A stretch of 64,000 nt of DNA from a virus, in IMG/VR virus record IMGVR_UViG_3300046680_000412, positions 1-64,000 of that record; one strand, written 5' to 3'. Both the position numbers and the translations under genes were made by a program. Every line of letters begins with the position of its first letter. Position 1 is the first letter of the stretch. This document shows, one piece after another, positions 11,997-53,351 of the stretch. The notes under the pieces are model-generated. The model ran no database searches, was not told the DNA's origin, and saw nothing but the letters and a program-made list of their open reading frames with translations.

Positions 11997-14303
11997 ATGG
12001 TAAAGCGATATGGCCCGACCCGTGGCGCTGGCACGGTGATCGAGGAACAAGAGGGCGATAAGACTATCGCGCCCGGCGCGCTCGGATGGGCGGGCTACGC
12101 TGGCATTCTCGAACGCGGTGACATCGGAAAGCTGATGTTGATCGGCTCGAAGACCGAGCTGTTCAAGCGCACGGGCGGCGTGATTCCCGACAGTTTTTTG
12201 CCCGACTGCGCACTGGACTTCTTCAGTAGCGCCAACGGCGCGGGCGGGCTGGCGCTCGTGCGCGTCACCGACGGCAACGAGATTCAGGCAAGCGCAACGC
12301 TCTTCGCGCGCAAAGCGGGCGTGCTCACGCCGATGGGCGTTCTCAAAGCCGCGAACGGTGGCCGCTGGGGAGGAAAGTCACTCCACATCTCCGGCGAGAT
12401 GGATTCGACCGCTGAAGGCGACGATCTCTCGAACACGACGTTGCAGCTCCCGGGCGGGATGGACACGGACTTCGCCACGGATCGCCTCAAGGGGGGCTAC
12501 GTCGAGCTTCGCGATGTGTCGAATGCTCGCTTTCCGATCATCGGGAACTCAGACACGGGGCTCGTCACAGTCGCGAGCGATCAGACGATGTACGATCAGT
12601 ATGTCGCTGCATCGGGTTCGACGACGCGTTTCTTCATCACGCTCGAAAACGCGGGCAAGGCGGTTTCGTTTCGTATCACCGATGGCGAAGACTCGCCCGA
12701 TTCCGAGTTCGCGATCGAAGCCTATGTCGATGGCTCGCTCGCACGGAAATGGCCGAACCTCCACACCGATCCGTTGAACGCTCGCTACTGGGTCAACGTG
12801 ATCAATAACGACGACTCGAACTACTACGTTCGTGCCGAAGACCTCTGGACGGGCGCGCACACCGCTGCAGTTCGACCAGCGAATCACTACGGCCTGATCG
12901 CTTCGGTTACGGCCGGCGTGCTGACAGCCACCATCAAGGACTTTCAGGCCTCAAGTCCAGGCGGCGGCAACCCGACGCTCACGCTGGCGGGCAGTGAAGG
13001 CACGCTGGCCGACACGTACACGATCACGATGACTAACGCGACGCACGGCAATTTCGAGTCGGAGCGTTTCGGGGCGTTTAGCGCGCTAGTCACGCTCGGC
13101 AGCTCCTACGTGACCGAAAACAAGTGGATCCCCGCGTTCACAGTCACGGCCGGTTCTTCACCGCTGGCCGCTGGCGACGTGCTGACGATTCACTACAAGC
13201 CGTTCCTGAAAGATTCTTTGGTCGGTGGTTTTCTGTATCCCGACAAGGTCCACGCGAAGCGCGAGGCCTACCGCATCATCGCAAACAACTACAACACAAT
13301 CACTGTCGCCGCGGGCTCGGATCTCACTCTGAGCGGCGCCGTCAGCGATGAGTTCATGGTGGTCGCGGCGCTCGAAATGACCGGTGGCGCCGACGGCAAC
13401 GCGGATGTCATCGACGCGAGCTACGAGCAGCAGGCATGGGACGTCGACTTGAGCCCGTTCAACGGACTCGCGGACCAAGGCCTTGGACTTGTGAAGTTCG
13501 CCACTCCGGGCATTACGTCCACTGCGGTGCAAAAAGCCGGCATGGCATACGGAGAGGCCAAGAACCATCAGTACCGTTATGAATGCCCGGCGAACGTCAC
13601 GACCGAGCAAGGCGCTATCGGGCTCGTCAACGACACACTGGGCCGCTCAGACTACGCCGTGATGTCGTGGCCGTCCTACGGCTATGTGCCGGATCCGGAT
13701 CCGTCGTTCGCGCGCGAGGGCCGGCTCAAGTTGATTCCGCTCACGGGCATGATTCACGGTCGCGAAGCACGCATCGCTGCGGACTTCGACGGCTACCACA
13801 AGGCAGAAGCAGGCATCGACGCAATTCTGGCGCGCGTGCTCAAGCTGCCGACACTCGACCAGCGGCTCAACGAAGAGCTGCTCAATCCGGCTGGCATCTC
13901 CGTCATCAAGAAGAAGCAGGGCAACTTCGTGATCTGGGGAGATCGCACGCTGCATCGCGATCCGACGTGGCGCTTCAAGCATCAGCGCGAGCAGATGTCG
14001 TATTACGAGCAAGTTCTCGAAACGTCGTTCGACTTCATCATCTTTGCGATCAACGACTCGCAGAGCGACGCGCCCGCCAAGACGGCACTGATCACGTTCT
14101 TTACGCCCGAGTTCGTCAAGCGTGCGTTGCGCGGCAAGACGTTTGCGGACGCAGCGATCATCAAGGTCGACGAAGAGATCAACACCGACCTCACGCGCGC
14201 TCAAGCCGACAAATACGCAGAAGTCAGTTTGAAGCTCGCTGACACGGTCGAGCGCTTCATCATCAAGATCGGCAAGCAGGGCATCTTCGAGTCGGTGGCG
14301 TAA
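11997..14303 (+). CDS. Contractile tail sheath protein
   Basis: 768 residues, ATG start behind a near-consensus ribosome binding site. The N-terminus (YGPTRGAGTVIEEQEGDKTIAPG) and the C-terminal domain (SFDFIIFAINDSQSD, then TPEFVKRALRGKTFADAAIIKVDEEINT) match the sheath family shared by T4-like phages and other contractile systems: the C-terminal domain builds the sheath lattice through strand exchange. A large variable insertion, residues about 130-470, is beta-rich with Gly-rich loops and probably decorates the sheath exterior. The protein polymerises around the tube and contracts during infection. It is followed by a small beta protein and the tube gene. Confidence 0.85.
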   Translation: MVKRYGPTRGAGTVIEEQEGDKTIAPGALGWAGYAGILERGDIGKLMLIGSKTELFKRTGGVIPDSFLPDCALDFFSSANGAGGLALVRVTDGNEIQASATLFARKAGVLTPMGVLKAANGGRWGGKSLHISGEMDSTAEGDDLSNTTLQLPGGMDTDFATDRLKGGYVELRDVSNARFPIIGNSDTGLVTVASDQTMYDQYVAASGSTTRFFITLENAGKAVSFRITDGEDSPDSEFAIEAYVDGSLARKWPNLHTDPLNARYWVNVINNDDSNYYVRAEDLWTGAHTAAVRPANHYGLIASVTAGVLTATIKDFQASSPGGGNPTLTLAGSEGTLADTYTITMTNATHGNFESERFGAFSALVTLGSSYVTENKWIPAFTVTAGSSPLAAGDVLTIHYKPFLKDSLVGGFLYPDKVHAKREAYRIIANNYNTITVAAGSDLTLSGAVSDEFMVVAALEMTGGADGNADVIDASYEQQAWDVDLSPFNGLADQGLGLVKFATPGITSTAVQKAGMAYGEAKNHQYRYECPANVTTEQGAIGLVNDTLGRSDYAVMSWPSYGYVPDPDPSFAREGRLKLIPLTGMIHGREARIAADFDGYHKAEAGIDAILARVLKLPTLDQRLNEELLNPAGISVIKKKQGNFVIWGDRTLHRDPTWRFKHQREQMSYYEQVLETSFDFIIFAINDSQSDAPAKTALITFFTPEFVKRALRGKTFADAAIIKVDEEINTDLTRAQADKYAEVSLKLADTVERFIIKIGKQGIFESVA

Positions 14304-28188: not shown

Positions 28189-30651
28189 ATGCCGACAGCC
28201 GCAGAGTTTGCACTTTTCACAGACCGGAAACTGATGGGGTCTGTCGATTTCGATTCGTACTTGATCAAGTACTTGCGAAACGACATTCGCGCGTCCGTAA
28301 AGCGTCTTTTCGTCCAGGGCGCTTTTCAGGAAAAGATGCCGCTGTCGAGCCCAGGAACCAACCTGATCCAGGTTGGGCTCAAGCCTACGTACGGAGACGG
28401 CTTCGCGCACGATGGCTCCGGCCGCTTGCTCGATCTCGAACAGATCGATCGTACCGCGAGATTCGAGAACGAGAACGGCCAGCTTTACGAAGTCGGCGCG
28501 GCTTACGTCGAGTACCCCGTTGGGATCCGGATCAACCCACGTAGTGGCCAGCCCGAATACGATCGCATGATCGAAGGCATTGGCCTGCAGGCCTCGCCTG
28601 ACAGCGTCACGAACAACGTGGACACGTTGACGTTTCGCGTGGACGCGCTCTTCGAGCACGGCGGCGCCGGATTTCATGTCGGTAGACAGGTCCGAGTGTT
28701 TCTGCTTACGCCGGCACTGGGCGCAACGACAGCGGAGGTCGCCATTGAGACGTGCACGGTCACGTGGAACGGCACTCAAAACGTGATCGAGACAGTGGGC
28801 TTGCTGGGCCAAACGAACGTGCTCATGTCGGGCACCTACTACGTGGTGCAGTTGATTGGCGTGCACGTATTTCGCGACAGCGCCAGCAACCGCCCGTCCG
28901 AACGGCCGGACGAGGTTTTCTTCGTCGGCACGGTGACGGGAAACGGCGGCGGCACGCCGTCGGTGTTTGACATCACTGACCAGAACCTGATCCAAGCACA
29001 GGCGGCCGGTTCAGTGACGGTCGAGATGCTGCCGGATTGGGCTGATGGCACGTCGAATGCGGGAGGTGACGCGCAAAGCGTCTTTGAAGATTTGATTCAT
29101 GACCTGACGTCCACGACGGGCGGACGCGGCGCGGCCAAGCTCACCGCTGCCGCCTTGGCGAATTGGGCCGATGGCACCCCTAACCCCGCGGACATTTTGA
29201 GCGATACGATCGCCAAGATCATCACGGATCTCACGTCGACCGACGGCGAGGCGGGCGCAGGAAAGCTCACGGTCGCGGCGCGCGGGAGCTGGGCGGACGG
29301 GACGCCCAACGCCGCTGCGCGCCTCAGTCAAGCACTGGCTAAAATCATCAGCGACCTCACGGGGACTTCGGGCACGCGAGGTTCTGGCAAAATTACTGCC
29401 CCCGCAATGCCGCCCTGGGCTGACGCCTCTGTCATTCCGGCAGGCACCATCGGGGCGCAGCTCGGCGCGATGATTACGTCATTGGCGGGCACCGACGGAA
29501 CGCTCAAGATCGTCGCCCCGGATCTGTCCGGTTACCCGATCGATCTTCCTCCCGGCACGCTTCACGATACGTTAGCGCTCATGCTGGTCTCGACGAATCA
29601 TGCGTTGCTCTCGGCCAAGCGTCGTGCGGAAGGAGTCGGCGTACAGACCCTGAAGCTTCTTTTTACGAATACCGACTGGACGCTGTATGACATCGCGTGC
29701 CTAACGGATGGATTTGATCACCCGCTGGCATTTGTCGCGGTAGGCGATCACGGCTCGATCGTTTCGCGCGCGGGCATCTCTGGCCAGTGGACAGCACACG
29801 CGCCCGGAGGCAGCTACACGGGCGACTTCAAAGCGATCGAAGCGGGCCTGAATGGGTTTGCCGCCGTAGGGAGCAACGGCGAGATCCAAACAACCACCGA
29901 TCCCACTGTGTGGAACTCGCGACATTCGTCTGGCAACCATTTCACGGACATTGCGTACAAACCCGATGCCACGGCGATCTTCTGCGCCGTGGGTTTGGGC
30001 GGCTACATTTGGACTTCAACCAACTTGACCAGCTGGACGCAGCGCACCGGCGCGCCCGGCATGACTTCAGACAACTACGTCGCGATCACGTGGGGCTACG
30101 GCAAGGGGCACTCGTCGGGCCCGACGGGATTGTTCGTTGTGACCACCGACGGCGGCAAGGTGATGACGAGTCCGGATGGTATTGTTTGGACGGCGCAGTC
30201 GTCCGGTACCATCACGGGCACGACGCCCAAGTTTCTTGATCGCATGCTGCAGAACAACCCCGTGTTTGGGTTTGTGGCGCTGTACACGCGATCGAGTGAC
30301 ACCCAGATCGGTATCGCGTATTCCGATGACGGCGTGACCTGGACGATCATTTCGTCGTTGACGTCGAACTTCGACGAGCCCAACTTGCGCTTGGCTTTGC
30401 TCGACGAAAGCATGTTGTATCTGTCGACCAAGAGCGCCACGCAACCTTACTCGCTCAATGCGATGCAAGTCTTCGACAGGGTCACGATGCCGACGCCGAC
30501 CTCGTCAGATTTGTTCACGAGCATCTACGACGTCGGCGAATGCTACCCGTTCGGCGGACTGAACGCGCTCGGAACACTGTTCGTAGTCGGGCGCCTCAAC
30601 AACGGCGACGGCTGCATCATGAGCGGCGCGCCGTTCCGGCCGACCTACTGA
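28189..30651 (+). CDS. Tail fibre/receptor-binding protein with 42-residue repeats and beta-propeller
   Basis: 820 residues. Residues 1-280 form an N-terminal attachment region, with EYDRMIEG and PRSGQPEYDR segments of the type seen in baseplate-proximal proteins. Residues about 284-450 hold three 42-residue repeats and a partial fourth, each beginning WADGT or WADAS. Residues about 490-810 contain repeated WT/W-S motifs (GGYIWTSTNLTSWTQRT, GGKVMTSPDGIVWTAQS, GIAYSDDGVTWTIIS), i.e. Asp boxes of a beta-propeller related to that at 26000-26830. By position after the gpI-like gene it is the most likely main receptor-binding fibre. Confidence 0.75.
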   Translation: MPTAAEFALFTDRKLMGSVDFDSYLIKYLRNDIRASVKRLFVQGAFQEKMPLSSPGTNLIQVGLKPTYGDGFAHDGSGRLLDLEQIDRTARFENENGQLYEVGAAYVEYPVGIRINPRSGQPEYDRMIEGIGLQASPDSVTNNVDTLTFRVDALFEHGGAGFHVGRQVRVFLLTPALGATTAEVAIETCTVTWNGTQNVIETVGLLGQTNVLMSGTYYVVQLIGVHVFRDSASNRPSERPDEVFFVGTVTGNGGGTPSVFDITDQNLIQAQAAGSVTVEMLPDWADGTSNAGGDAQSVFEDLIHDLTSTTGGRGAAKLTAAALANWADGTPNPADILSDTIAKIITDLTSTDGEAGAGKLTVAARGSWADGTPNAAARLSQALAKIISDLTGTSGTRGSGKITAPAMPPWADASVIPAGTIGAQLGAMITSLAGTDGTLKIVAPDLSGYPIDLPPGTLHDTLALMLVSTNHALLSAKRRAEGVGVQTLKLLFTNTDWTLYDIACLTDGFDHPLAFVAVGDHGSIVSRAGISGQWTAHAPGGSYTGDFKAIEAGLNGFAAVGSNGEIQTTTDPTVWNSRHSSGNHFTDIAYKPDATAIFCAVGLGGYIWTSTNLTSWTQRTGAPGMTSDNYVAITWGYGKGHSSGPTGLFVVTTDGGKVMTSPDGIVWTAQSSGTITGTTPKFLDRMLQNNPVFGFVALYTRSSDTQIGIAYSDDGVTWTIISSLTSNFDEPNLRLALLDESMLYLSTKSATQPYSLNAMQVFDRVTMPTPTSSDLFTSIYDVGECYPFGGLNALGTLFVVGRLNNGDGCIMSGAPFRPTY
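29038..29541 (+). repeat. 126-bp (42-residue) tandem repeats in the fibre gene
   Basis: Tryptophan codons that open the units lie at 29038, 29164, 29290 and 29416, exactly 126 bases apart. Each unit encodes WADGTxN, a helical stretch (LSxxIAKIIxDLT) and a GKLT/GKIT strand. The fourth is diverged and shortened. These probably form a repetitive stalk. Confidence 0.85.
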
Positions 30652-32813: not shown

Positions 32814-32844
32814 AGCGCACATGCACGCGTGCGCGCTGTGCGCT
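32814..32844 (+). promoter_or_regulatory. Nested inverted repeats at the lysis/replication boundary
   Basis: AGCGCACA (32814-32821) and TGTGCGCT (32837-32844) are perfect inverted repeats around the 10-base palindrome GCACGCGTGC (32823-32832). It lies between the lysis block and the replication block and could be an operator or an RNA hairpin. No T-run follows. It overlaps the most upstream start of the helicase gene. Confidence 0.45.
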
Positions 32845-34340
32845 CGGTACGTAACGCTGTGGCCGTCACGTTGAGAATTTCCAATCGCCTCGTTCGCGTC
32901 GACGGGGTTGACCTCAAGACCTTGCGCGCGCTCGACGCCGTGTGCTCCTACCGCGTCGCGGGCTACTGGTTTTCGCCCGCATACAAGTCGCGCCGGTGGG
33001 ACGGCAAAGAGCATCTCTTCAAGTTCACGCAAAAGCGCGGCTACCACGCGCCGTCAGGCATGACTGAAGAGATCGCGCGTCTCTTGCGCAAGCGCAAGGT
33101 CCCCTACTCGGTCGTGTTCGATACGAAGCTCCACAGTCGCTTCAAGCGATTCGAGTGGAATCCCGACGTCGTGCTGCGCGACTACCAAAACGAAGCCGTG
33201 CGCGGGCTGTTGCGAGGCGCGGTCCCCGGCCGTGGTGTGTTGAAGATGCCCATTCGCTCGGGCAAGACCAAGACAGTTGCGCGCGTGCTGCACAAGCTCG
33301 GGCGCAGCGCAGTGATCGTCGTTCCGTCGCGCTGGCTTCTGCACCAAACGATCGCCAGCTTGCGTGAGTGCATGCCTGACGCCCCGATCGGTCAAATCGG
33401 AGACGGCGTGTTCGACGTGCAGTTCTTCACCGTGGCCACGATTCAGTCGCTGTCGAACATGGCGCCGGTGCGCAAGACGCGCAAGAAAAAGGGGCGCGCT
33501 GCGCATCCGGAATACGCCAACTTGATGTCTCGCTTTGACGTGGGCGTGTTCGACGAAGCGCATCACGTGCGAGGTGACGGCGACTGGTATCGCGTGTTCA
33601 TCGATCTGGACGCGCGCTTCAAGATCGGCGTGTCGGCCACGATCTTTTTCGACAACACCAAAGAACAAGAGTCAGGGATCATCTGGTTGCGCGGCGCATG
33701 CGGGCCGATTCGCTACGAGGTGTCCGCGTCACGGCTCATCCAGGCTGGCTATTTGCTGCCGCAGACGGTCAAGATGTACCGCGTTCACGAGCCGGCCGAG
33801 CTTCGTAATGCGAAGTACAGCGCCACGCTCAAGAAGCAATGCATCACTGAGAACGCGCATCGCAACACGATGATTGCGCGCATCGTGCGCGATTACGCGC
33901 ATGCCGACAAACCCCGTAAGGTGCTCGTGATCGCGCGCGAGCTCGCGCACATCGAAGCGATCGGCACGGCATTGGAAGAGCTCGACGTCAGCTTCCGCGT
34001 GCTCACGGGCACGACGCCGCATGACCAGCGCATGGACTACGTCGACGAGTTCTGCAGCAAGCGCGGCCCGCACGTGCTCGTCGGCAACGTGCTCGGCGAA
34101 GGCGTGGACATCCCGGACGTCGAGATCGTGGTGAACGCCGAGGGAGGCCGGGACGAAAAGCAAACGTGGCAGCGCCAGCGCAACCTGACGGTCGTGGAGG
34201 GCAGCGACAAGGTGCCGATCATGATCGATTTCTACGACTGCATGTCGAGCGTGTTCGAGAAGCACAGCAAGGCCCGGCTCAAGGTCTACCGGTCGGAGTC
34301 GGAGTTCAGCGCTGAGGTCCTCGAATGCGACGCCGACTAG
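32829..34340 (+). CDS. SF2 DNA helicase (UvsW/DEAH-type)
   Basis: 503 residues from the first GTG; in-frame starts at 32859 (GTG) and 32871 (TTG) are also possible, and none has a clear ribosome binding site. Helicase motifs in order: motif I near 140 (MPIRSGKTKT), motif II near 241 (FDEAHH), motif III near 268 (GVSATIF), then a C-terminal RecA-like domain with LVIARELAHIEAIG and VLVGNVLGEGVDIP. The usual motif VI QRxGRxGR is degenerate (WQRQRNLT). T4 UvsW unwinds branched DNA and R-loops and moves replication from origin-dependent to recombination-dependent mode. It opens the replication block. Confidence 0.75.
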   Translation: MRAVRSVRNAVAVTLRISNRLVRVDGVDLKTLRALDAVCSYRVAGYWFSPAYKSRRWDGKEHLFKFTQKRGYHAPSGMTEEIARLLRKRKVPYSVVFDTKLHSRFKRFEWNPDVVLRDYQNEAVRGLLRGAVPGRGVLKMPIRSGKTKTVARVLHKLGRSAVIVVPSRWLLHQTIASLRECMPDAPIGQIGDGVFDVQFFTVATIQSLSNMAPVRKTRKKKGRAAHPEYANLMSRFDVGVFDEAHHVRGDGDWYRVFIDLDARFKIGVSATIFFDNTKEQESGIIWLRGACGPIRYEVSASRLIQAGYLLPQTVKMYRVHEPAELRNAKYSATLKKQCITENAHRNTMIARIVRDYAHADKPRKVLVIARELAHIEAIGTALEELDVSFRVLTGTTPHDQRMDYVDEFCSKRGPHVLVGNVLGEGVDIPDVEIVVNAEGGRDEKQTWQRQRNLTVVEGSDKVPIMIDFYDCMSSVFEKHSKARLKVYRSESEFSAEVLECDAD

Positions 34341-35818
34341 GCAAGCGACGCGACCGCAAGGAACGCATCAAGGCCGTCCCGACGCTCTACCCAGACGAGG
34401 GGCCGTGCGGCCTCGTCGAGGCGTACGAGCAGCTGACGCGCGGCGCATACGCCATCTGGCTTCGCATGTCGGTAGCCGAGCGCTCGGAGCTGCGCATGGG
34501 CCGCGGGCAGCTGTCCAAGCTGCTCGGCTATTCGCGCCGGCAAGGCGACGAGCTCTTTCGCGAGCTCGAACGCAAGGGCTTCATCATGTTCATCCCGCAC
34601 GGCCCGTGGCGCCGGACCATCATCGTGATCGTGCGCAAGCCGCTCTTGGAACGCGGGCACGGCTTCACACGTTTTTCCTCGCTTCTGTTCTCGCCGATTT
34701 CAGAGATGCATTTTCGAGAACTGGTATCGGGGAAATCTGTGTCGCTGGATCCTCCGAATAGCTATGGCCTTCTAGGGGTCGCCACGCACTTACCAGAATC
34801 AGTCAATCACTTACCCATTTCGTTCACTCAGTTACCGTTTCCGTCACGCACTTACCAAATGCCATTTGGGGCGCCCCACAAATCTCTGGGTTTCACGACA
34901 GCCCACGCAACAGAGATCGGTCAAAAAATGCACGCTTCAACCTCACGTGTGAAACGCCAGAAGTTTATAGCTGAAGGTCAATATTTTGACGCATTGGCTG
35001 CGTATAGAGATCAGATCAGTAATTGTAAGAGAGAAGAATTAGACAGAAGACGATTGCTACGAAGTAGCAATCGCGCAAGACGCGACGTGCGCAACGCAGC
35101 CAACCGCGCCCGGGGCATCGAGGTGCTCGATTGGAACGACTTGGACATCGTGACGTTCGACCCTCGCCGGCCCAAGCACGCGCTCATGTGCGCTGTGCTC
35201 GATCGCAAGTCCCGGGATCCCGAGCGCATGGCGCTGGTGAAACGGCTTGAGTCGGAGTTTTGCCGGCTCTACTCGCGCTACCGTCGTGCGGCGGAACGTG
35301 CATCGGGTCGACCCGTGGTTTCGTACAAAGTCACGAGCAAAGAGCGAAAGTATGCAGCCGCGGCCGGAGTCCTGTGCGTTCAGCGCGGAGTGACGCCGCG
35401 GCACCTGATGCAGTTTTGGCACGCGAACATCAAACACTTTCGGCGCGCATCGCACATGACGGTGCCGACGCTTTCGTTTCTCTCTGCGCCGGCCAACATC
35501 GACACCGTCGCGTGCGGGCTTGTGCTCGACGAGACGGCGCCCGGTGGCGCGCGCATCGGCGCCTCGACGGCCGAGGCGGATGGCAGCGACTTGCGCCCCA
35601 AGGCGGGCAACAGCTTCAGCGACACATCGAGGCTCGATCCCCGGCTGCGGTCGGGGCTGGAAAAATCTGGGTTCTCCACGACCGAGCTCAACGACCGGTA
35701 CCTTCTCACCGTGCAGAAGAACGCGCTCGGGATAGCCAACGGTCGGGACATTTTCATCGGACGGGGTCCCTTGCGCGATATGTCTCTTTGGGCAGCGCGG
35801 AACCTGTATGCGAAGTGA
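34325..35818 (+). CDS. Replication initiator-like protein carrying a putative origin
   Basis: 497 residues, ATG start 16 bases inside the end of the helicase gene. Residues about 20-110 look like a winged-helix DNA-binding domain (LSKLLGYSRRQGDELFRELERKGFI). Residues about 150-245 are encoded by unusually AT-rich, non-typical sequence with four iterons. The C-terminal half contains a basic helical region. A DNA-binding N-terminus, an origin in the middle of the gene, and a DnaC-like loader gene directly after it (11-base overlap) recapitulate the lambda O-P arrangement. Sequence similarity to lambda O itself was not evident; this is an architectural assignment. Confidence 0.6.
   Translation: MRRRLGKRRDRKERIKAVPTLYPDEGPCGLVEAYEQLTRGAYAIWLRMSVAERSELRMGRGQLSKLLGYSRRQGDELFRELERKGFIMFIPHGPWRRTIIVIVRKPLLERGHGFTRFSSLLFSPISEMHFRELVSGKSVSLDPPNSYGLLGVATHLPESVNHLPISFTQLPFPSRTYQMPFGAPHKSLGFTTAHATEIGQKMHASTSRVKRQKFIAEGQYFDALAAYRDQISNCKREELDRRRLLRSSNRARRDVRNAANRARGIEVLDWNDLDIVTFDPRRPKHALMCAVLDRKSRDPERMALVKRLESEFCRLYSRYRRAAERASGRPVVSYKVTSKERKYAAAAGVLCVQRGVTPRHLMQFWHANIKHFRRASHMTVPTLSFLSAPANIDTVACGLVLDETAPGGARIGASTAEADGSDLRPKAGNSFSDTSRLDPRLRSGLEKSGFSTTELNDRYLLTVQKNALGIANGRDIFIGRGPLRDMSLWAARNLYAK
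34776..34856 (+). repeat. Four origin-type iterons
   Basis: The core CACTTACC (CAGTTACC in the third) occurs at 34787, 34808, 34829 and 34849, with starts 21, 21 and 20 bases apart, i.e. about two helical turns. The upstream flank is shared too, with a consensus near TTTCnGTCACG before the core. All four are in the same orientation. Regular helical phasing is expected for initiator binding sites. Confidence 0.75.
35051..35073 (+). repeat. Perfect inverted repeat at the right edge of the AT-rich tract
   Basis: CGATTGCTAC and GTAGCAATCG are perfect complements separated by GAA. The element lies within the coding sequence of the initiator-like gene, so it constrains both protein and DNA, which argues that the DNA structure matters. 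Confidence 0.8.
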
Positions 35819-36494
35819 GGTCGAGTGTGATGAGTTTGCAACAGCGGTGGCCGATCAGCTGGGCGAGGATGATCCTCGCTGTCGCTATCGTTTGGCGTGC
35901 TACGAGGCTTGCATCCCGCGCACGTTCTGGGGCGTGGCGAGCTCGGACGTTTCGTACAACGAAACCGTCTTTCGCGGGGTCGTGGTGCGGTATCGGCGAC
36001 GGCTCAAGCGCGCGTTGCGCAACGGCTACTCGCTGCTTTTTGTGGGCGACAACGGCGTCGGGAAAACGATGTTCATGTCGTACCTGCTTACGCAGGCCAT
36101 CAAGCGCGGATTCACTGCGTACTACACCACGCTTACTCAGCTCGATGCGGACATCAAGCGCGGCTTTCGCGATCGCGACGCCGACCAGCGACTGCAGGCC
36201 ATGCTCGAAAGCGACTTTGTTGCGATCGACGAAGTCGGCAAAGAGCGGTTCAAGCCAGATAGCTTCACGACGTCACAGTTCGAGTCGTTTCTCAAGCGCC
36301 GCTACGACGACGGAGAGCCCGTGTTGCTCGGTTCGAACGCGGCCCACGATGATCTCTGTAAGATGTATGGGGCCACGATCGAGAGCATGATCGAGGGCCG
36401 CTACCAGGTTGTGTCCCTCGAACCGGGAGACTGCAGGCGCGACCACAAGCGACGGATGAAGCGCGCCATGCGCTTCGGAGGCAAGGGCAAATGA
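35808..36494 (+). CDS. DnaC-like helicase loader (AAA+ ATPase)
   Basis: 228 residues. A Walker A motif is at about 80-88 (GDNGVGKTMF), Walker B near 138-143 (DFVAIDEVGKE) and a sensor-like GSNA near 176. The size and the N-terminal Cys-containing region fit DnaC/IstB-type ATPases that load the replicative helicase onto DNA. The gene overlaps the initiator-like gene by 11 bases and the DnaB-like helicase is encoded 0.7 kb downstream, which supports the loader role. Transposon helper IstB is excluded by context. Confidence 0.75.
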   Translation: MRSEVECDEFATAVADQLGEDDPRCRYRLACYEACIPRTFWGVASSDVSYNETVFRGVVVRYRRRLKRALRNGYSLLFVGDNGVGKTMFMSYLLTQAIKRGFTAYYTTLTQLDADIKRGFRDRDADQRLQAMLESDFVAIDEVGKERFKPDSFTTSQFESFLKRRYDDGEPVLLGSNAAHDDLCKMYGATIESMIEGRYQVVSLEPGDCRRDHKRRMKRAMRFGGKGK

Positions 36495-37052: not shown

Positions 37053-37223
37053 ATGATCACTCTGACTCCAAAGCGTCTTTGCGAAGACTGCGGCGACGAA
37101 GCGCCGCGCAACAAGAAGCGTCGCATGTGCGAGCGCTGCGGGCTGCGCGTTTGTCCCTGGTGTTATTCTCATGTGCACGCGCTGCATGTGGAGCTGGACA
37201 AGCAGAAGGCGACGAAGCATTGA
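37053..37223 (+). CDS. 56-residue double-CxxC zinc finger protein
   Basis: ATG at 37053 to TGA at 37221-37223. The sequence has CEDC near 10-13, CERC near 26-29 and a further CPWC near 34-37, with two His after it, so one or two zinc sites are likely. It is basic between the Cys pairs. Its stop overlaps the probable TTG start of the DnaB-like gene (TTGA), so the two are probably coupled. Small zinc proteins next to helicase genes may modulate replication, but no function can be assigned. Confidence 0.65.
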   Translation: MITLTPKRLCEDCGDEAPRNKKRRMCERCGLRVCPWCYSHVHALHVELDKQKATKH

Positions 37224-38662
37224 ACTTCGACGCAGCCTACGAAGACGCGGTTTTGGCCGAGTCGCTTCGCGACGAAGCGTTTCTGAAGCGCGCGGCGCGC
37301 GTGTGCCAAGAGCACCACTTCGCAAGCAAGGAGCGGTCTTGGTTGTGGGGCGTCATCCACGACAACTGGACCAAGTACCACGAACGCACCTCGGGCAAGA
37401 TCATCGCGTCACGTGCCCGGCGAGACTTCGACAAGGCAGAGAAGCGCAAGCCCTACCTGCTTCTCGCCCGGAAGGTGTTTCGCGCGCGCGTCAAAGATCC
37501 GCGCGCTGTGCTCGAAGAGCTTGAGCGCTTTGTCAGGCACGTCGGCATTCAGCTCGCGATCGAAGAGTCTGCGACGCTCTTGGAGAAGGGCAAGATCGAT
37601 GACGCCGAGAAGGCGATCGAGAAAGCTTCGCGCGGCGTTGTTCGGCAACGCAACTACACGCACATTCGCTGGATCGAAGGCTTCAAAGAGCGGCAGGCGC
37701 AGCGCAAATACGAGCGCGATCACCCTGACGAGTTCACTACGATTCCGCTCGGCTTCCCCCGGATCGATAAGACGCTTTCGGGCGGCGGTCGCAAGGGTGA
37801 GCTCGCGCTGATCATGGGCACGACCGGACGCGGCAAATCGATCTTTCTCACCAACAGCGCACAGGCGTGCGTGGCGCGTGGCTACAACGCGATCTACTTC
37901 GGATTCGAAATGCCAGCGCGTCAGATCGCCGCGCGGCAGGACTCGCGATGGACAGGCCTGCAGTATCAGAAGTTCAAGGGCTTCGACTTCAAGCCGAGCG
38001 AGTTGCGCACGATTCGCGCGCGCTTGCGCAAGGCGCGAAAGCGTTTTCGTAACCGCCTGCACATCGTGTCGATGCCGGTGCGTTCCGCCACGATCACGGA
38101 TGTGCGCAACGCCATCGAAGACATCCGACAGGATCACGGTTTTCAGGCCGACGCGATTTTTTTGGACAGCGCCGATCATTTGCGCGCGCTCGAAACCTAC
38201 GGCGGCAACTTTCGTCTGCAGCAAGCCGAGGTCTACTGGGCCGCGAAGGAGCTCGCCGAAGAAGACGGCTACTTCGTCATGTCGTCGACTCACGCGGGCA
38301 GGGAGTGGGCGACGAAAGTCGCCACAGCCGAAGCGAGCAGCGAAGCCTACGACAAGAGCCGGATCGCGGACATGGTGATGTCACTCAACGACCCGGCCGA
38401 AATGAAGCGGAAGGGCCGCAAGACGGTACTTGCAGATGATGACGACGACGAAGACTTCGACGACGGCGGCGAAGAGCTCGGCGAGCCCGTGGTGAAAGAG
38501 GGCGCCAAGCTGATGGAACTGTATTTGGGCAAGTATCGAGACGGCGATTCGCGGTTCATGGTCAACGTGGAGTGCGACTTTGCTTGCATGACGATGAAGG
38601 AAACTCGGGAGGCCGATCATGGCGGCGACGACGATGAAGACGACGAAGACGAGCTCGACTGA
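37220..38662 (+). CDS. dnaB: Replicative DNA helicase (DnaB-like)
   Basis: 480 residues from the TTG at 37220, which overlaps the stop of the zinc-finger gene; the frame is open further upstream but that region encodes the small zinc protein in another frame. Residues about 1-90 correspond to the DnaB N-terminal helical domain. Walker A is at about 200 (GTTGRGKSIF) and Walker B near 310-318 (DAIFLDSADHL), followed by a GYFVMSSTHAGREWAT stretch. Unusual is an acidic insertion of Asp/Glu near 409-425 and an acidic C-terminus. It unwinds DNA at forks with the primase encoded 1.2 kb downstream. Confidence 0.8.
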   Translation: MNFDAAYEDAVLAESLRDEAFLKRAARVCQEHHFASKERSWLWGVIHDNWTKYHERTSGKIIASRARRDFDKAEKRKPYLLLARKVFRARVKDPRAVLEELERFVRHVGIQLAIEESATLLEKGKIDDAEKAIEKASRGVVRQRNYTHIRWIEGFKERQAQRKYERDHPDEFTTIPLGFPRIDKTLSGGGRKGELALIMGTTGRGKSIFLTNSAQACVARGYNAIYFGFEMPARQIAARQDSRWTGLQYQKFKGFDFKPSELRTIRARLRKARKRFRNRLHIVSMPVRSATITDVRNAIEDIRQDHGFQADAIFLDSADHLRALETYGGNFRLQQAEVYWAAKELAEEDGYFVMSSTHAGREWATKVATAEASSEAYDKSRIADMVMSLNDPAEMKRKGRKTVLADDDDDEDFDDGGEELGEPVVKEGAKLMELYLGKYRDGDSRFMVNVECDFACMTMKETREADHGGDDDEDDEDELD

Positions 38663-39735: not shown

Positions 39736-39888
39736 ATGAGCACAGACGAACTGCCCGAAAAGTTTCCGCGAGAGCGGCGGCGGCGTGAGCGCACGAAGCT
39801 CGACGGCGTTGCCGCTCGAAAGCGCAAGCTGAAGTCGCGCGAGTCCGCCAAGGTTGCGCGCGCGACGCGCAAGAAACAGCGACGCTAG
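39736..39888 (+). CDS. 50-residue highly basic protein
   Basis: ATG at 39736 to TAG at 39886-39888 with a strong AAAGGAG ribosome binding site. About half of the residues are Lys or Arg, in clusters (RERRRRERTK, ARKRKLKSRE), so it should bind nucleic acid non-specifically. It has no hydrophobic core and is probably disordered. The GTG of the primase gene starts on its last stop base. Confidence 0.6.
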   Translation: MSTDELPEKFPRERRRRERTKLDGVAARKRKLKSRESAKVARATRKKQRR

Positions 39889-40937
39889 TGCGCTTCGACA
39901 TCGAAGATTACGTGAACGCGAACCTGACGAATGCCAAGTCTGTGCAAGCAGGCAACGGTCAAGAGATGACAGCCGTCTGCCCGGCGTGCGATCGCTACGG
40001 CGGGTTTTACGTCAACATCGAGACGGGCGCGTACGTGTGTTGGAAGTGCGACTTTCGCGCGCATACGGTGGTGGGGCTCGTCGCTGAGGTCGAAGACATT
40101 TCGTGGAGTGAGGCGCGCGGCTTCATCTTCACGCGCAGCGTCAAGCTGCGCCGCAAGCAAGATGTGTTTTCGCTGGCCGATCGCGTGAGGGCGATCCGGC
40201 CGCACGCGATCGTGGAAGACGAAGAGCCGGCGCCGAACGTCAACGTCGAGCTGCCCGAATACTACGTGCAGATCTATGATCCGGACCGCGCGACGCCGTG
40301 GCAGTTTCCGCGCTATCTCAAGGAGCGCGGGATCACGGCGGCCGCGGCCAAGTCGTGGGGCCTCGGGTATTGCCGAAAGGGCAAGTATGGCGACCGGTTG
40401 ATCATTCCGATCAGTTGCCCGGCTGGCGAGTCATGGACCGCGCGTGCGATGTCAGATGATGTGTTCGGTCCGAAGTATTTGAACCCGCCCGGCGCCGACC
40501 ATCGGCGTCTGCTCATCGGCTGGCACGTCTCACGGGTGACAGGCGACATCGTGCTTTGTGAGGGGCCGCTCGATGCCGTGCGCCTCTATCAGCACGACTT
40601 GCCGGCGCTGGCGCTGGGCGGGAAGGAACTCCACGACGAGCAGCTGGCGATGCTGCGGTCGCTGCCTCCCAAGGCCGCGGTGACGATCATGCTCGACCCT
40701 GAAGAAGAGGTCGCGCCGTTCAAGCTGGCCGAGCGGCTGAGCCTGCATTTCGAGCAAATCTACATCGCCAAGCTGCCGCTGCGAACCAAGGCAGGCAAGA
40801 AGCTGGACCCGGGCGAGTCGACCCGCAAGCAGGCGCACAGAGCCGTGGACGAGGCCGTCTTGTGGCGCTCGTCCCGGGGCCCGAAGCTTTCGGCCATGCT
40901 TCGACAATCACGGAAAGCCTGGGAAAAAAGATGGTGA
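39888..40937 (+). CDS. DNA primase (zinc finger plus TOPRIM)
   Basis: 349 residues, GTG start on the final base of the preceding stop. A four-Cys zinc finger (CPAC near 31-34, CWKC near 51-54) is the DNA-binding domain of DnaG-type primases. TOPRIM motifs are CEGPLDA near 224 and LDPEEE near 269. In between is an RNA polymerase basic domain. There is no C-terminal helicase, consistent with a separate DnaB-like protein. It makes RNA primers for the lagging strand. It is shorter than bacterial DnaG (about 580), which lacks here the helicase-binding C-terminal domain. Confidence 0.8.
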   Translation: MRFDIEDYVNANLTNAKSVQAGNGQEMTAVCPACDRYGGFYVNIETGAYVCWKCDFRAHTVVGLVAEVEDISWSEARGFIFTRSVKLRRKQDVFSLADRVRAIRPHAIVEDEEPAPNVNVELPEYYVQIYDPDRATPWQFPRYLKERGITAAAAKSWGLGYCRKGKYGDRLIIPISCPAGESWTARAMSDDVFGPKYLNPPGADHRRLLIGWHVSRVTGDIVLCEGPLDAVRLYQHDLPALALGGKELHDEQLAMLRSLPPKAAVTIMLDPEEEVAPFKLAERLSLHFEQIYIAKLPLRTKAGKKLDPGESTRKQAHRAVDEAVLWRSSRGPKLSAMLRQSRKAWEKRW

Positions 40938-51726: not shown

Positions 51727-53351
51727 GCAGTGGCGTCAACATGGATGCGATGCGTCGCGGTTACGACGAGCAGCAGCGCGGCGGCGGCGAGTATCTAGCC
51801 TTCGAAAAAGGCGAAACGCTCTTGTACATTCACCCACCGTGTCGCGACAACGACAAGCACGCGCTGACCAAGGGCAAGAACTACGTGCCGGTCACGGTGC
51901 ACTACGCCGTCGGCAAGAACAATCGGATGGTGGTCGGTCTCGACGCCGAGACCAATCCGATCATCGAGCATCCGTTCGTCGAAAAAGTGCTTACCAAGCG
52001 CAAGGTGCATCTGACGGGCAAGTGCCCGATGAAGAAAGCACTCGACTCCGGAAAGACGTTTTCGGACGAAGAAGCCGACGAGTCGCGCCCCCAAACAAAG
52101 TATCTTTGGGGTTTCACGCCGATGGGCTTCCGCAAGAAGTCTTCGTCCGATTGGCAGGAGCACGATAAGCAGGGAGAGCCGCAAGTCGGCATGGTCGGAA
52201 AGCAGATCTTCGACGGGATCATGGAGTGCTTTTTCGACAATGGCGACATCAGCGATCCGCGTGCTGCGGTGCTCGTGCGCGTGATCAAGTCGGGGAAGGG
52301 CCGACAGACGAAGTACGAGGTCAAGGTCGATCCGGATACGTCGAAGTCGCCGCGCAAGCTGCCCAAGGCAACGCGCGCTGCGATCGCGAAGTCGATGGCA
52401 GAAGACGGCGACTGCGATCTGTTCCGTGTCGTTGGGAACATGATCAAGTCGCCTGATGAAGTGGTCGCGATCATCAAGGGTGTCGAGGTCGACGAGGATG
52501 TCGACGACGAGGACGATGGAAAGGGAAAAGCCATGAAGAAGGGCGCCAAGAAGGGTAAGCGCGACGACGAAGACGAAGAGCTCGACGACGAAGAAGAGCT
52601 CGACGAAGACGACGACGAAGACGACGAAGGCGATCTCGACGACGACGAGGATGAAGACGACGACGAGCCCAAGGGCAAGAAGTCGAAGGCCAAGTCGAAA
52701 GCCAAGTCGAAGTCCAAGGATGACGACGACGAGGACGACGAGGACGAAGACGACGAGGACGAAGACGACGAGGACGAAGACGACGAGGACGAAGACGACG
52801 AGCCCAAGGGCAAGAAGTCGAAGGCCAAGTCGAAGTCCAAGTCGAAGTCCAAGTCCAAGGACGACGACGAGGACGAAGACGACGAGGACGAAGACGACGA
52901 GGACGAAGACGACGAGGACGAAGACGACGAGCCCAAGGGCAAGAAGTCGAAGACCAAGTCGAAGTCCAAGTCGAAGTCCAAGGACGACGACGAGGACGAC
53001 GAGGACGACGACGAGGACGAAGCCGACGACGAGGACGACGAAGCCGACGACGAGGACGACGAAGACGAGCCCAAGGGCAAGGCCAAAGCGAAGGCCAAGG
53101 GCAAGAAGGGCAAAAAGTCGGACGACGAAGACGACGACCTCGGACTCGATGATCTCGACGACGCGCTGGCCGACCTCGACGACGAAGACGACGACGACGA
53201 GAAGCCCAAGAAAGGCAAGACGGCCGTGAAGAAAAAAGACAAGAAGGGCGACGACACCAAGCCAGCCAAGTCGAAAGACAAGGACAAGGCCAAGGGCAAA
53301 GAAGCCAAGTCGAAAGACAAAGGCAAGTCCGCGAAGAAGGCAAAGAAGTAG
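51723..53351 (+). CDS. Putative ssDNA-binding protein with extreme charged-repeat tail
   Basis: 542 residues. Residues about 25-245 look like a gp32-type ssDNA-binding core: ETLLYIHPPCRDNDKH, LTGKCPMKK, TKYLWGFTPMGFRKK and VGKQIFDGIMECFFDNGDISDP are recognisable as OB-fold and zinc-region-like pieces, but a certain match cannot be claimed. From about residue 250 to the end the protein is a block polyampholyte: Asp/Glu blocks alternate with Lys/Ser/Pro blocks. SSBs normally have one short acidic tail for partner binding, so a 290-residue charged tail is unusual. Position before recA supports a recombination role. Confidence 0.6.
   Translation: MSSGVNMDAMRRGYDEQQRGGGEYLAFEKGETLLYIHPPCRDNDKHALTKGKNYVPVTVHYAVGKNNRMVVGLDAETNPIIEHPFVEKVLTKRKVHLTGKCPMKKALDSGKTFSDEEADESRPQTKYLWGFTPMGFRKKSSSDWQEHDKQGEPQVGMVGKQIFDGIMECFFDNGDISDPRAAVLVRVIKSGKGRQTKYEVKVDPDTSKSPRKLPKATRAAIAKSMAEDGDCDLFRVVGNMIKSPDEVVAIIKGVEVDEDVDDEDDGKGKAMKKGAKKGKRDDEDEELDDEEELDEDDDEDDEGDLDDDEDEDDDEPKGKKSKAKSKAKSKSKDDDDEDDEDEDDEDEDDEDEDDEDEDDEPKGKKSKAKSKSKSKSKSKDDDEDEDDEDEDDEDEDDEDEDDEPKGKKSKTKSKSKSKSKDDDEDDEDDDEDEADDEDDEADDEDDEDEPKGKAKAKAKGKKGKKSDDEDDDLGLDDLDDALADLDDEDDDDEKPKKGKTAVKKKDKKGDDTKPAKSKDKDKAKGKEAKSKDKGKSAKKAKK
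52500..53340 (+). repeat. Charged block repeats in the SSB-like gene
   Basis: Four copies of a unit opening EPKGKxxKxK start at 52665, 52800, 52929 and 53067, i.e. 135, 129 and 138 bases apart. Each is followed by Lys/Ser-rich and then Asp/Glu-rich segments built from GACGAGGACGAAGAC-type 15-base micro-repeats. Slippage on such DNA would change tail length in frame. Confidence 0.85.

Follow-up and report, generated by a model that had tools for sequence, protein, structure and literature searches.

Does a phage replication initiator gene carry, inside its own coding sequence, the origin at which its product would act, and to which kind of known origin would such a site belong? This question is raised by positions 34776-35073 of the window, i.e., the 64,000-nucleotide stretch analyzed here, which belongs to an 81,974-base uncultivated-virus record (hereafter W) of a phage genome with 61% GC. 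Comparison with related loci makes it likely that this region is a theta-type origin located between the two initiator domains, in the linker that joins them. In terms of kind, its best reading is an intragenic iteron-type origin, as in lambda O or SPP1 gene 38, which would be operated by a winged-helix initiator, a DnaC-type loader, and a phage-encoded DnaB.

The initiator gene and its relatives

The genes and gene segments on which this reading draws are the following:

32829..34340, + strand: UvsW-like helicase, directly 5' of the initiator gene, and also 5' of the initiator in relatives with loci long enough
34325..35818, + strand: initiator gene (ORF, 497 aa), host of the putative origin; relatives in L002, L004, L011, L012, L021, L024, L025/L026, L083, L084, L089, and L092
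34412..34636, + strand: winged-helix N-terminal domain, the presumed iteron binder (AlphaFold model; HTH_36 match in one relative, E=3.6e-5)
34928..34930, + strand: in-frame internal ATG; the Met is invariant in four close sequences, and split relatives begin their C-domain gene here
35808..36494, + strand: DnaC/IstB-type helicase loader, 3' of the initiator (phrog_50, E=5e-22)
37079..38662, + strand: DnaB-like replicative helicase ORF (phrog_19, E=4e-50)
39888..40937, + strand: DNA primase (phrog_47, E=5e-42)

The original prediction had placed iterons, an AT-rich element, and a palindrome inside the coding sequence of a protein with a winged-helix-like N-terminus, followed by a DnaC-like loader, in a contractile phage with its own DnaB, and this description was borne out. 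All three elements lie within ORF 34325-35818, the AlphaFold model of the N-terminal domain is a winged helix (mean pLDDT 70), the gene at 35808-36494 encodes a DnaC/IstB-type loader, and the phage encodes a DnaB (phrog_19) and a tail sheath, along with a DNA polymerase (phrog_405). Judging from alignment to relatives, the true start of the DnaB-like ORF is probably near 37223.

A PHROG search with the 497-aa initiator returned 0 matches at E<=1, and a Pfam search a sub-threshold HTH match only. The initiator, loader, and DnaB served as queries for scanning IMG/VR contigs, and the resulting family comprises 13 distinct initiators (W, L002, L004, L011, L012, L021, L023, L024, L025/L026, L083, L084, L089, and L092/L093); L023 is without its N-terminus, and L003 is near-identical to L004 along its length. 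None was detected in the phage collection or in GTDB genomes, so that the family appears absent from these two sets as well as from PHROGs. The order UvsW-initiator-loader-DnaB was kept wherever loci extend far enough, and the lineages compared are related and not fully independent.

In L011, the initiator consists of two ORFs (L011:5827-7340), with iterons at the 3' end of the N-domain ORF, whose stop overlaps the C-domain ORF as ATGA, and with AAGGA preceding the C-domain ORF. The initiator is also split at the origin position in L021 (5718-7302), L025/L026 (L025:5833-7219), and L084 (3533-5762). Assembly error is possible for single contigs and less likely for four. Because these initiators are split exactly at the putative origin, this site is placed in the linker between the DNA-binding domain and a second domain, as are the iterons in lambda O, and the reading frame of this linker is free to change. 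The ATG at 34928 is a possible internal start, which could yield a separate C-domain protein.

An iteron array kept in place while its sequence changes

The repeats of W are located as follows:

34687..34721, unstranded: inverted repeat GTTCTCG-21 nt-CGAGAAC, just 5' of the iterons, with DNA near-invariant in W, L002, and L004
34782..34794, + strand: iteron 1 (periodicity scan)
34803..34815, + strand: iteron 2 (periodicity scan)
34824..34836, + strand: iteron 3 (periodicity scan)
34844..34856, + strand: iteron 4, in a codon phase unlike that of the other three (periodicity scan)

A 9-mer family test could not separate the iterons from chance, and a four-copy periodicity scan of the 81,974-base record was used instead, with first-order Markov copies of the record as null. 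All four predicted iterons, with starts 21, 21, and 20 bases apart, were recovered at a score of 65 out of 78, for null maxima of 47-50. Their TTACC cores are at 34790, 34811, 34832, and 34852 (spacing 21/21/20), and the core reads CACTTACC in three copies and CAGTTACC in the third. Arrays elsewhere in the record that outscored the iterons repeat every 18, 21, or 24 nt, which is what repeated codons would give. Outside the initiator gene, the record held two isolated CACTTACC-like sites and no second array.

Iteron arrays were found at the same place, with different sequences, in five loci (W, L002, L004, L011, and L012). Both L002 and L004 have four TTACC iterons spaced 21/21/20 as in W, L011 has four with an ACTTGC core spaced 21/21/21, and L012 has four copies of TCGGACTTTCCCA spaced 22/22/22, which reach 78/78 with all 13 scored positions identical. 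The periodicity scan returned no iteron array for the L021, L024, and L026 loci, nor did a repeat search in L083, L084, L089, and L092.

A repeated protein segment was considered as the source of these arrays and rejected, as copies stand in differing frames, i.e., copy 4 in W and all copies in L012. In the latter, the 22-nt spacing means that copies are read in three frames (codon phases 1, 2, 0, and 1), and a protein repeat therefore cannot explain them. Where iterons of W, L002, and L004 do encode leucine in frame, the codon is TTA in 9 of 9 cases, against a usage of about 2% of Leu codons in eight W genes. Synonymous codon identity reaches its gene maximum (0.87) at the 34687-34721 inverted repeat, and L011 shows an inverted repeat of 22 nt in the corresponding position (L011:6166-6224).

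Outside the initiator gene, the L012 genome (contig G004) contains the exact 4 x 22 array one more time:

30120-30460, reverse-complement coordinates of G004: second L012 iteron array, with a tandem-GA C-GNA-G hairpin

This array sits between a lysozyme-like ORF ending at about 29849 and an ORF starting at 30605 (same coordinates). An open frame crosses it with no recognized gene product matched, and the array is probably non-coding. Tandem-GA C-GNA-G hairpins occur exactly twice in the L012 genome (null 0.2), 315 and 335 nt past the starts of the respective arrays and in the same orientation. From this arrangement, the site is possibly a second origin.

An AT-rich tract followed by a covarying hairpin

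Downstream of the iterons, two further elements were delineated in W:

34976..35045, unstranded: AT-rich tract, 37% GC (GC window ranking), a probable DNA unwinding element
35051..35073, + strand: 10-bp hairpin with a C-(GAA)-G triloop on the coding strand (stem scan, synonymous shuffles, covariation)

A recount of 34971-35070 gave exactly the predicted 39 G or C in 100 bases. When all 70-nt windows of the record are ranked by GC, the 70 nt 5' of the W hairpin belong to the bottom 0.13%, and the tract falls in the lowest 0.07-0.33% in W, L002, L004, and L011. The corresponding 70 nt 5' of the in-gene hairpins of L012 and L021, at the 14th and 27th percentile, are not strikingly AT-rich.

The perfect 10-base inverted repeat with a 3-base loop was likewise found as predicted (CGATTGCTAC-GAA-GTAGCAATCG, 35051-35073). 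The W record contains 57 perfect stems of at least 6 bp with a 3-nt loop; none is longer than this one, and no other has a C-GNA-G loop on the + strand. A scan of both strands of the record returned no other C-GNA-G stem of at least 8 bp. A C-(GNA)-G hairpin is present at the matching place in 9 of the 13 related initiator loci, with GNA always on the coding strand. Stems measure 10 bp in W and L002, 7 in L004, 5 in L023, 8 in L025/L026, and 9 in L083; L011 combines 7 bp, a tandem GA, and 3 further pairs, and L012 and L021 have short stems with tandem GA. Arms are perfectly palindromic in W, L002, and L004 and unrelated between lineages. The C-G closing pair and G-N-A center recur on the same strand in 10 of 10 listed sites, a constancy that partly reflects the picking of sites by their C-GNA-G loop. 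The independent evidence for the hairpin is thus its covarying arms, its position, and its link to the iterons.

Across ten aligned sites, including the second L012 site, 89% of cells in seven core pairs are paired, and 27 are changed on both sides, for a shuffled mean of 8.8 (sd 2.4), a count that none of 500 shuffles reached. Pairing fell to 29-57% when the partner was shifted by 1-3 columns. None of the 62 paired core cells is G-T (G-U), and the tandem G-A pairs of L021 and of both L012 sites account for six of the eight unpaired ones. Synonymous shuffling gave P values of 3.5e-4 for W, 5e-5 for L002, 0.007 for L004, 0.0025 for L021, and 0.003 for L025; the L011 stem was recreated in 0 of 20,000 shuffles, and L012 (0.05) and L023 (0.11) offer weak evidence when taken alone. 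From the first iteron to the hairpin loop, the distance is 278-288 nt in W, L002, L004, and L011.

Codon usage (Arg-Ser, CGN AGN) was rejected as a sufficient cause of the loop motif, which survives 14-30% of synonymous shuffles. In L023 and L025, the second codon encodes Arg in place of Ser but retains AG, and the L083 loop stands in another codon phase.

Once the pattern had been defined, it was checked in two new loci from the initiator scan (L083 and L084) and in L089 and L092, obtained via the DnaB scan. In L083, cgtttcttc-GGA-gaagaaacg lies directly 3' of an AATTTAA-rich tract and is the sole such stem of at least 7 bp in 10.8 kb. No C-GNA-G hairpin was found in L084, L089, or L092, which rules out that it is universal in the initiator family, and L024 has a mismatched one only. 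The hairpin is therefore frequent rather than universal, and not all members share the origin layout. Overall, these comparisons indicate that iterons, AT-rich tract, and hairpin are under constraint at the DNA level, with their order and spacing fixed, largely independently of the encoded protein.

GC skew

Cumulative GC skew had been proposed as a check on the replication start, and its outcome was mixed. The detrended whole-base curve has its minimum 0.9 kb away from the site for W, and in seven of eight records this distance is 0.4-3.4 kb, whereas four-fold synonymous sites place the minimum elsewhere in seven of eight (the exception being L011). The whole-base signal may thus stem from gene content, and GC skew is equivocal, i.e., neither for nor against an origin. 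It was discarded as decisive proof of a replication start, given this disagreement.

Comparison with known origins and the question of common ancestry

In phage SPP1, oriL lies in gene 38, a second origin (oriR) is non-coding, gp39 is the loader, and gp40 is the phage DnaB (PMC6316719). As in W, direct repeats and an AT-rich unwinding element are found within the initiator gene, and gp38-gp39-gp40 form an initiator-loader-phage DnaB cassette, a likeness drawn from description only, with PHROG tying the W initiator to no described phage family. SPP1 also resembles L012 in its second, non-coding origin copy, unlike W with its single array, and the hairpin with a C-GNA-G loop sets W apart from SPP1. 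To our knowledge, gp39 is not described as a DnaC-type ATPase. The annotated rep_origin of Staphylococcus phage 80alpha lies inside a putative replisome organizer gene with DnaC next to it, and shows the W order of repeats, AT-rich tract, and short triloop hairpin, although its loop is CAA rather than the GNA of the W family.

The lambda origin in gene O also combines four iterons, an AT-rich tract, an inverted repeat, and an adjacent loader gene (PMC5043065), and its tract is, like that of W, purine-rich on the coding strand. However, lambda iterons are imperfect inverted repeats that bind O dimers, whereas those of W look direct; lambda relies on the host DnaB, whereas the W phage has its own; the lambda inverted repeat has a TGGC loop instead of GAA, and lies about 45 nt 3' of the iterons instead of about 195 nt. 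SPP1 and 80alpha are closer parallels to the putative W origin than lambda. The original prediction of a lambda-style origin stands as far as the order of iterons, AT-rich tract, palindrome, and loader and the DNA-level constraint are concerned, but its notion of independent reuse is unproven; the layout already exists in SPP1 and 80alpha. Relative to these known layouts, the distinctive part is the C-GNA-G hairpin, together with a new initiator family.

Rather than being reinvented, the layout could descend from an ancestor shared with lambda O or SPP1 G38P, the initiators having diverged past recognition. We take this possibility seriously and consider it somewhat unlikely: element order and neighboring genes are shared, as is a winged-helix N-domain followed by another domain, but hhalign against lambda O gave probabilities of 1.6% for the N-domain and 0.1% for the C-domain, and the C-domain model, which is helical and of low confidence, had no match in a structural search. 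With no Pfam match to a lambda O family either, the initiator looks unrelated to lambda O, in agreement with the lack of evident similarity noted in the original prediction. For the N-domain model, the nearest solved structures (Foldseek) were plasmid RepA-type initiators and MarR-type regulators, none significant. RepA-N-type initiators (PDB 5kbj, 4pql, and 4pt7), which have a winged-helix N-domain, were among the best neighbors (best E=0.01), with MarR family regulators scoring about equally.

Possible roles of the hairpin and of the region as a whole

The coding strand probably carries the functional hairpin, as some stems hold tandem G-A pairs, and such stems are symmetrical only when the top strand folds. 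DNA triloops of this kind and tandem GA pairs are unusually stable. Calculated DNA folding energies did not differ between strands, because the parameters do not visibly reward GNA loops or GA pairs; the case for the coding strand is thus built on the sequence pattern and on literature. Promoter hairpins of the N4 virion RNA polymerase require a C-G closing pair and a loop with 5'G and 3'A for their extrusion at physiological supercoiling (PMC4496689). The W hairpin shares this closing pair and loop but sits at a putative origin instead of a transcription promoter, and the features of this extruding class (C-G closing pair, 5'G...3'A loop, and short stem) are found in 10 of 10 sites, which had themselves been picked by this loop. 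That the structure is kept while its sequence changes suggests a mark read by shape at a double-stranded DNA origin. As a tentative and rather doubtful extension, the hairpin, often with tandem sheared G-A pairs, may be a strand mark proper to one class of phage origins, which would fold upon opening of the adjacent AT-rich tract and be read by the C-domain, loader, or primase in choosing the strand and edge for the helicase. If so, it would represent a structural origin element without arm consensus, and hence one invisible to sequence searches.

A double-stranded binding site for a dimeric protein, instead of a single-strand hairpin, would account for the perfectly palindromic arms of W, L002, and L004. 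It is unlikely, as a duplex site should keep its arms, but here arms vary around a constant, asymmetric G-N-A center and closing C-G, and as duplexes, the tandem GA stems of L011, L021, and both L012 sites lack palindromic symmetry.

The region as a whole might also be regulatory, with the initiator binding the iterons to repress or time its own operon and replication beginning elsewhere. Autoregulation is common among initiators, and this explanation fits the conserved inverted repeat at 34687-34721 and iterons inside the operon, the intergenic location of the second L012 array, where an operator could sit, and a whole-base GC skew without backing from synonymous sites. We nonetheless judge it improbable: the array lies about 450 nt into the gene, an extreme AT-rich tract and a covarying hairpin follow at fixed distance, the extra L012 site retains array and hairpin jointly, and the element order with adjacent loader and DnaB agrees with known origins.

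Finally, the hairpin could be an RNA or transcription signal (mRNA structure, terminator, or N4-type promoter) and no part of an origin, given that it lies within a transcribed segment and has the C-G closing pair and 5'G...3'A loop needed by N4 virion RNA polymerase promoters (PMC4496689), but this is quite improbable, since it is not followed by a U tract, a non-exhaustive scan of the large window proteins turned up no RNA polymerase family, G-U is absent from the 62 paired core cells, unlike in drifting RNA stems, W has a single C-GNA-G stem of at least 8 bp where a promoter class should recur, and the hairpin is tied to an iteron array also at a second, probably non-coding site in L012.

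Under the preferred reading of an intragenic iteron-type origin, the winged-helix N-domain would bind the four direct iterons, spaced by about two helical turns, to form a nucleoprotein complex. Torsion and negative supercoiling would then open the AT-rich tract, beside which the coding strand could fold, or be extruded from supercoiled DNA, into the C-(GNA)-G hairpin, which would remain folded and mark one strand and one edge of the bubble. The C-domain would deliver the DnaC-type loader and phage DnaB to this marked edge, and the phage primase and polymerase would arrive after helicase loading. An initiator family seen here only in uncultivated-virus contigs would thereby join the short list with intragenic origins, and the several diverged versions of one origin would make its elements readable by comparison alone.

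Additional observations

Three further features were recorded along the way. A long low-complexity repeat protein, acidic and lysine-rich, is encoded at 52500-53100 of the window, with periods of 18 and 21 nt. GC-rich 24-bp tandem repeats, several copies of which are perfect, occur in L005 at about 13080-13310 (record 75080-75310). In L007 (50-1759), a DnaC-type loader is apparently interrupted by an intein inside its Walker A motif, between GVGK and T.
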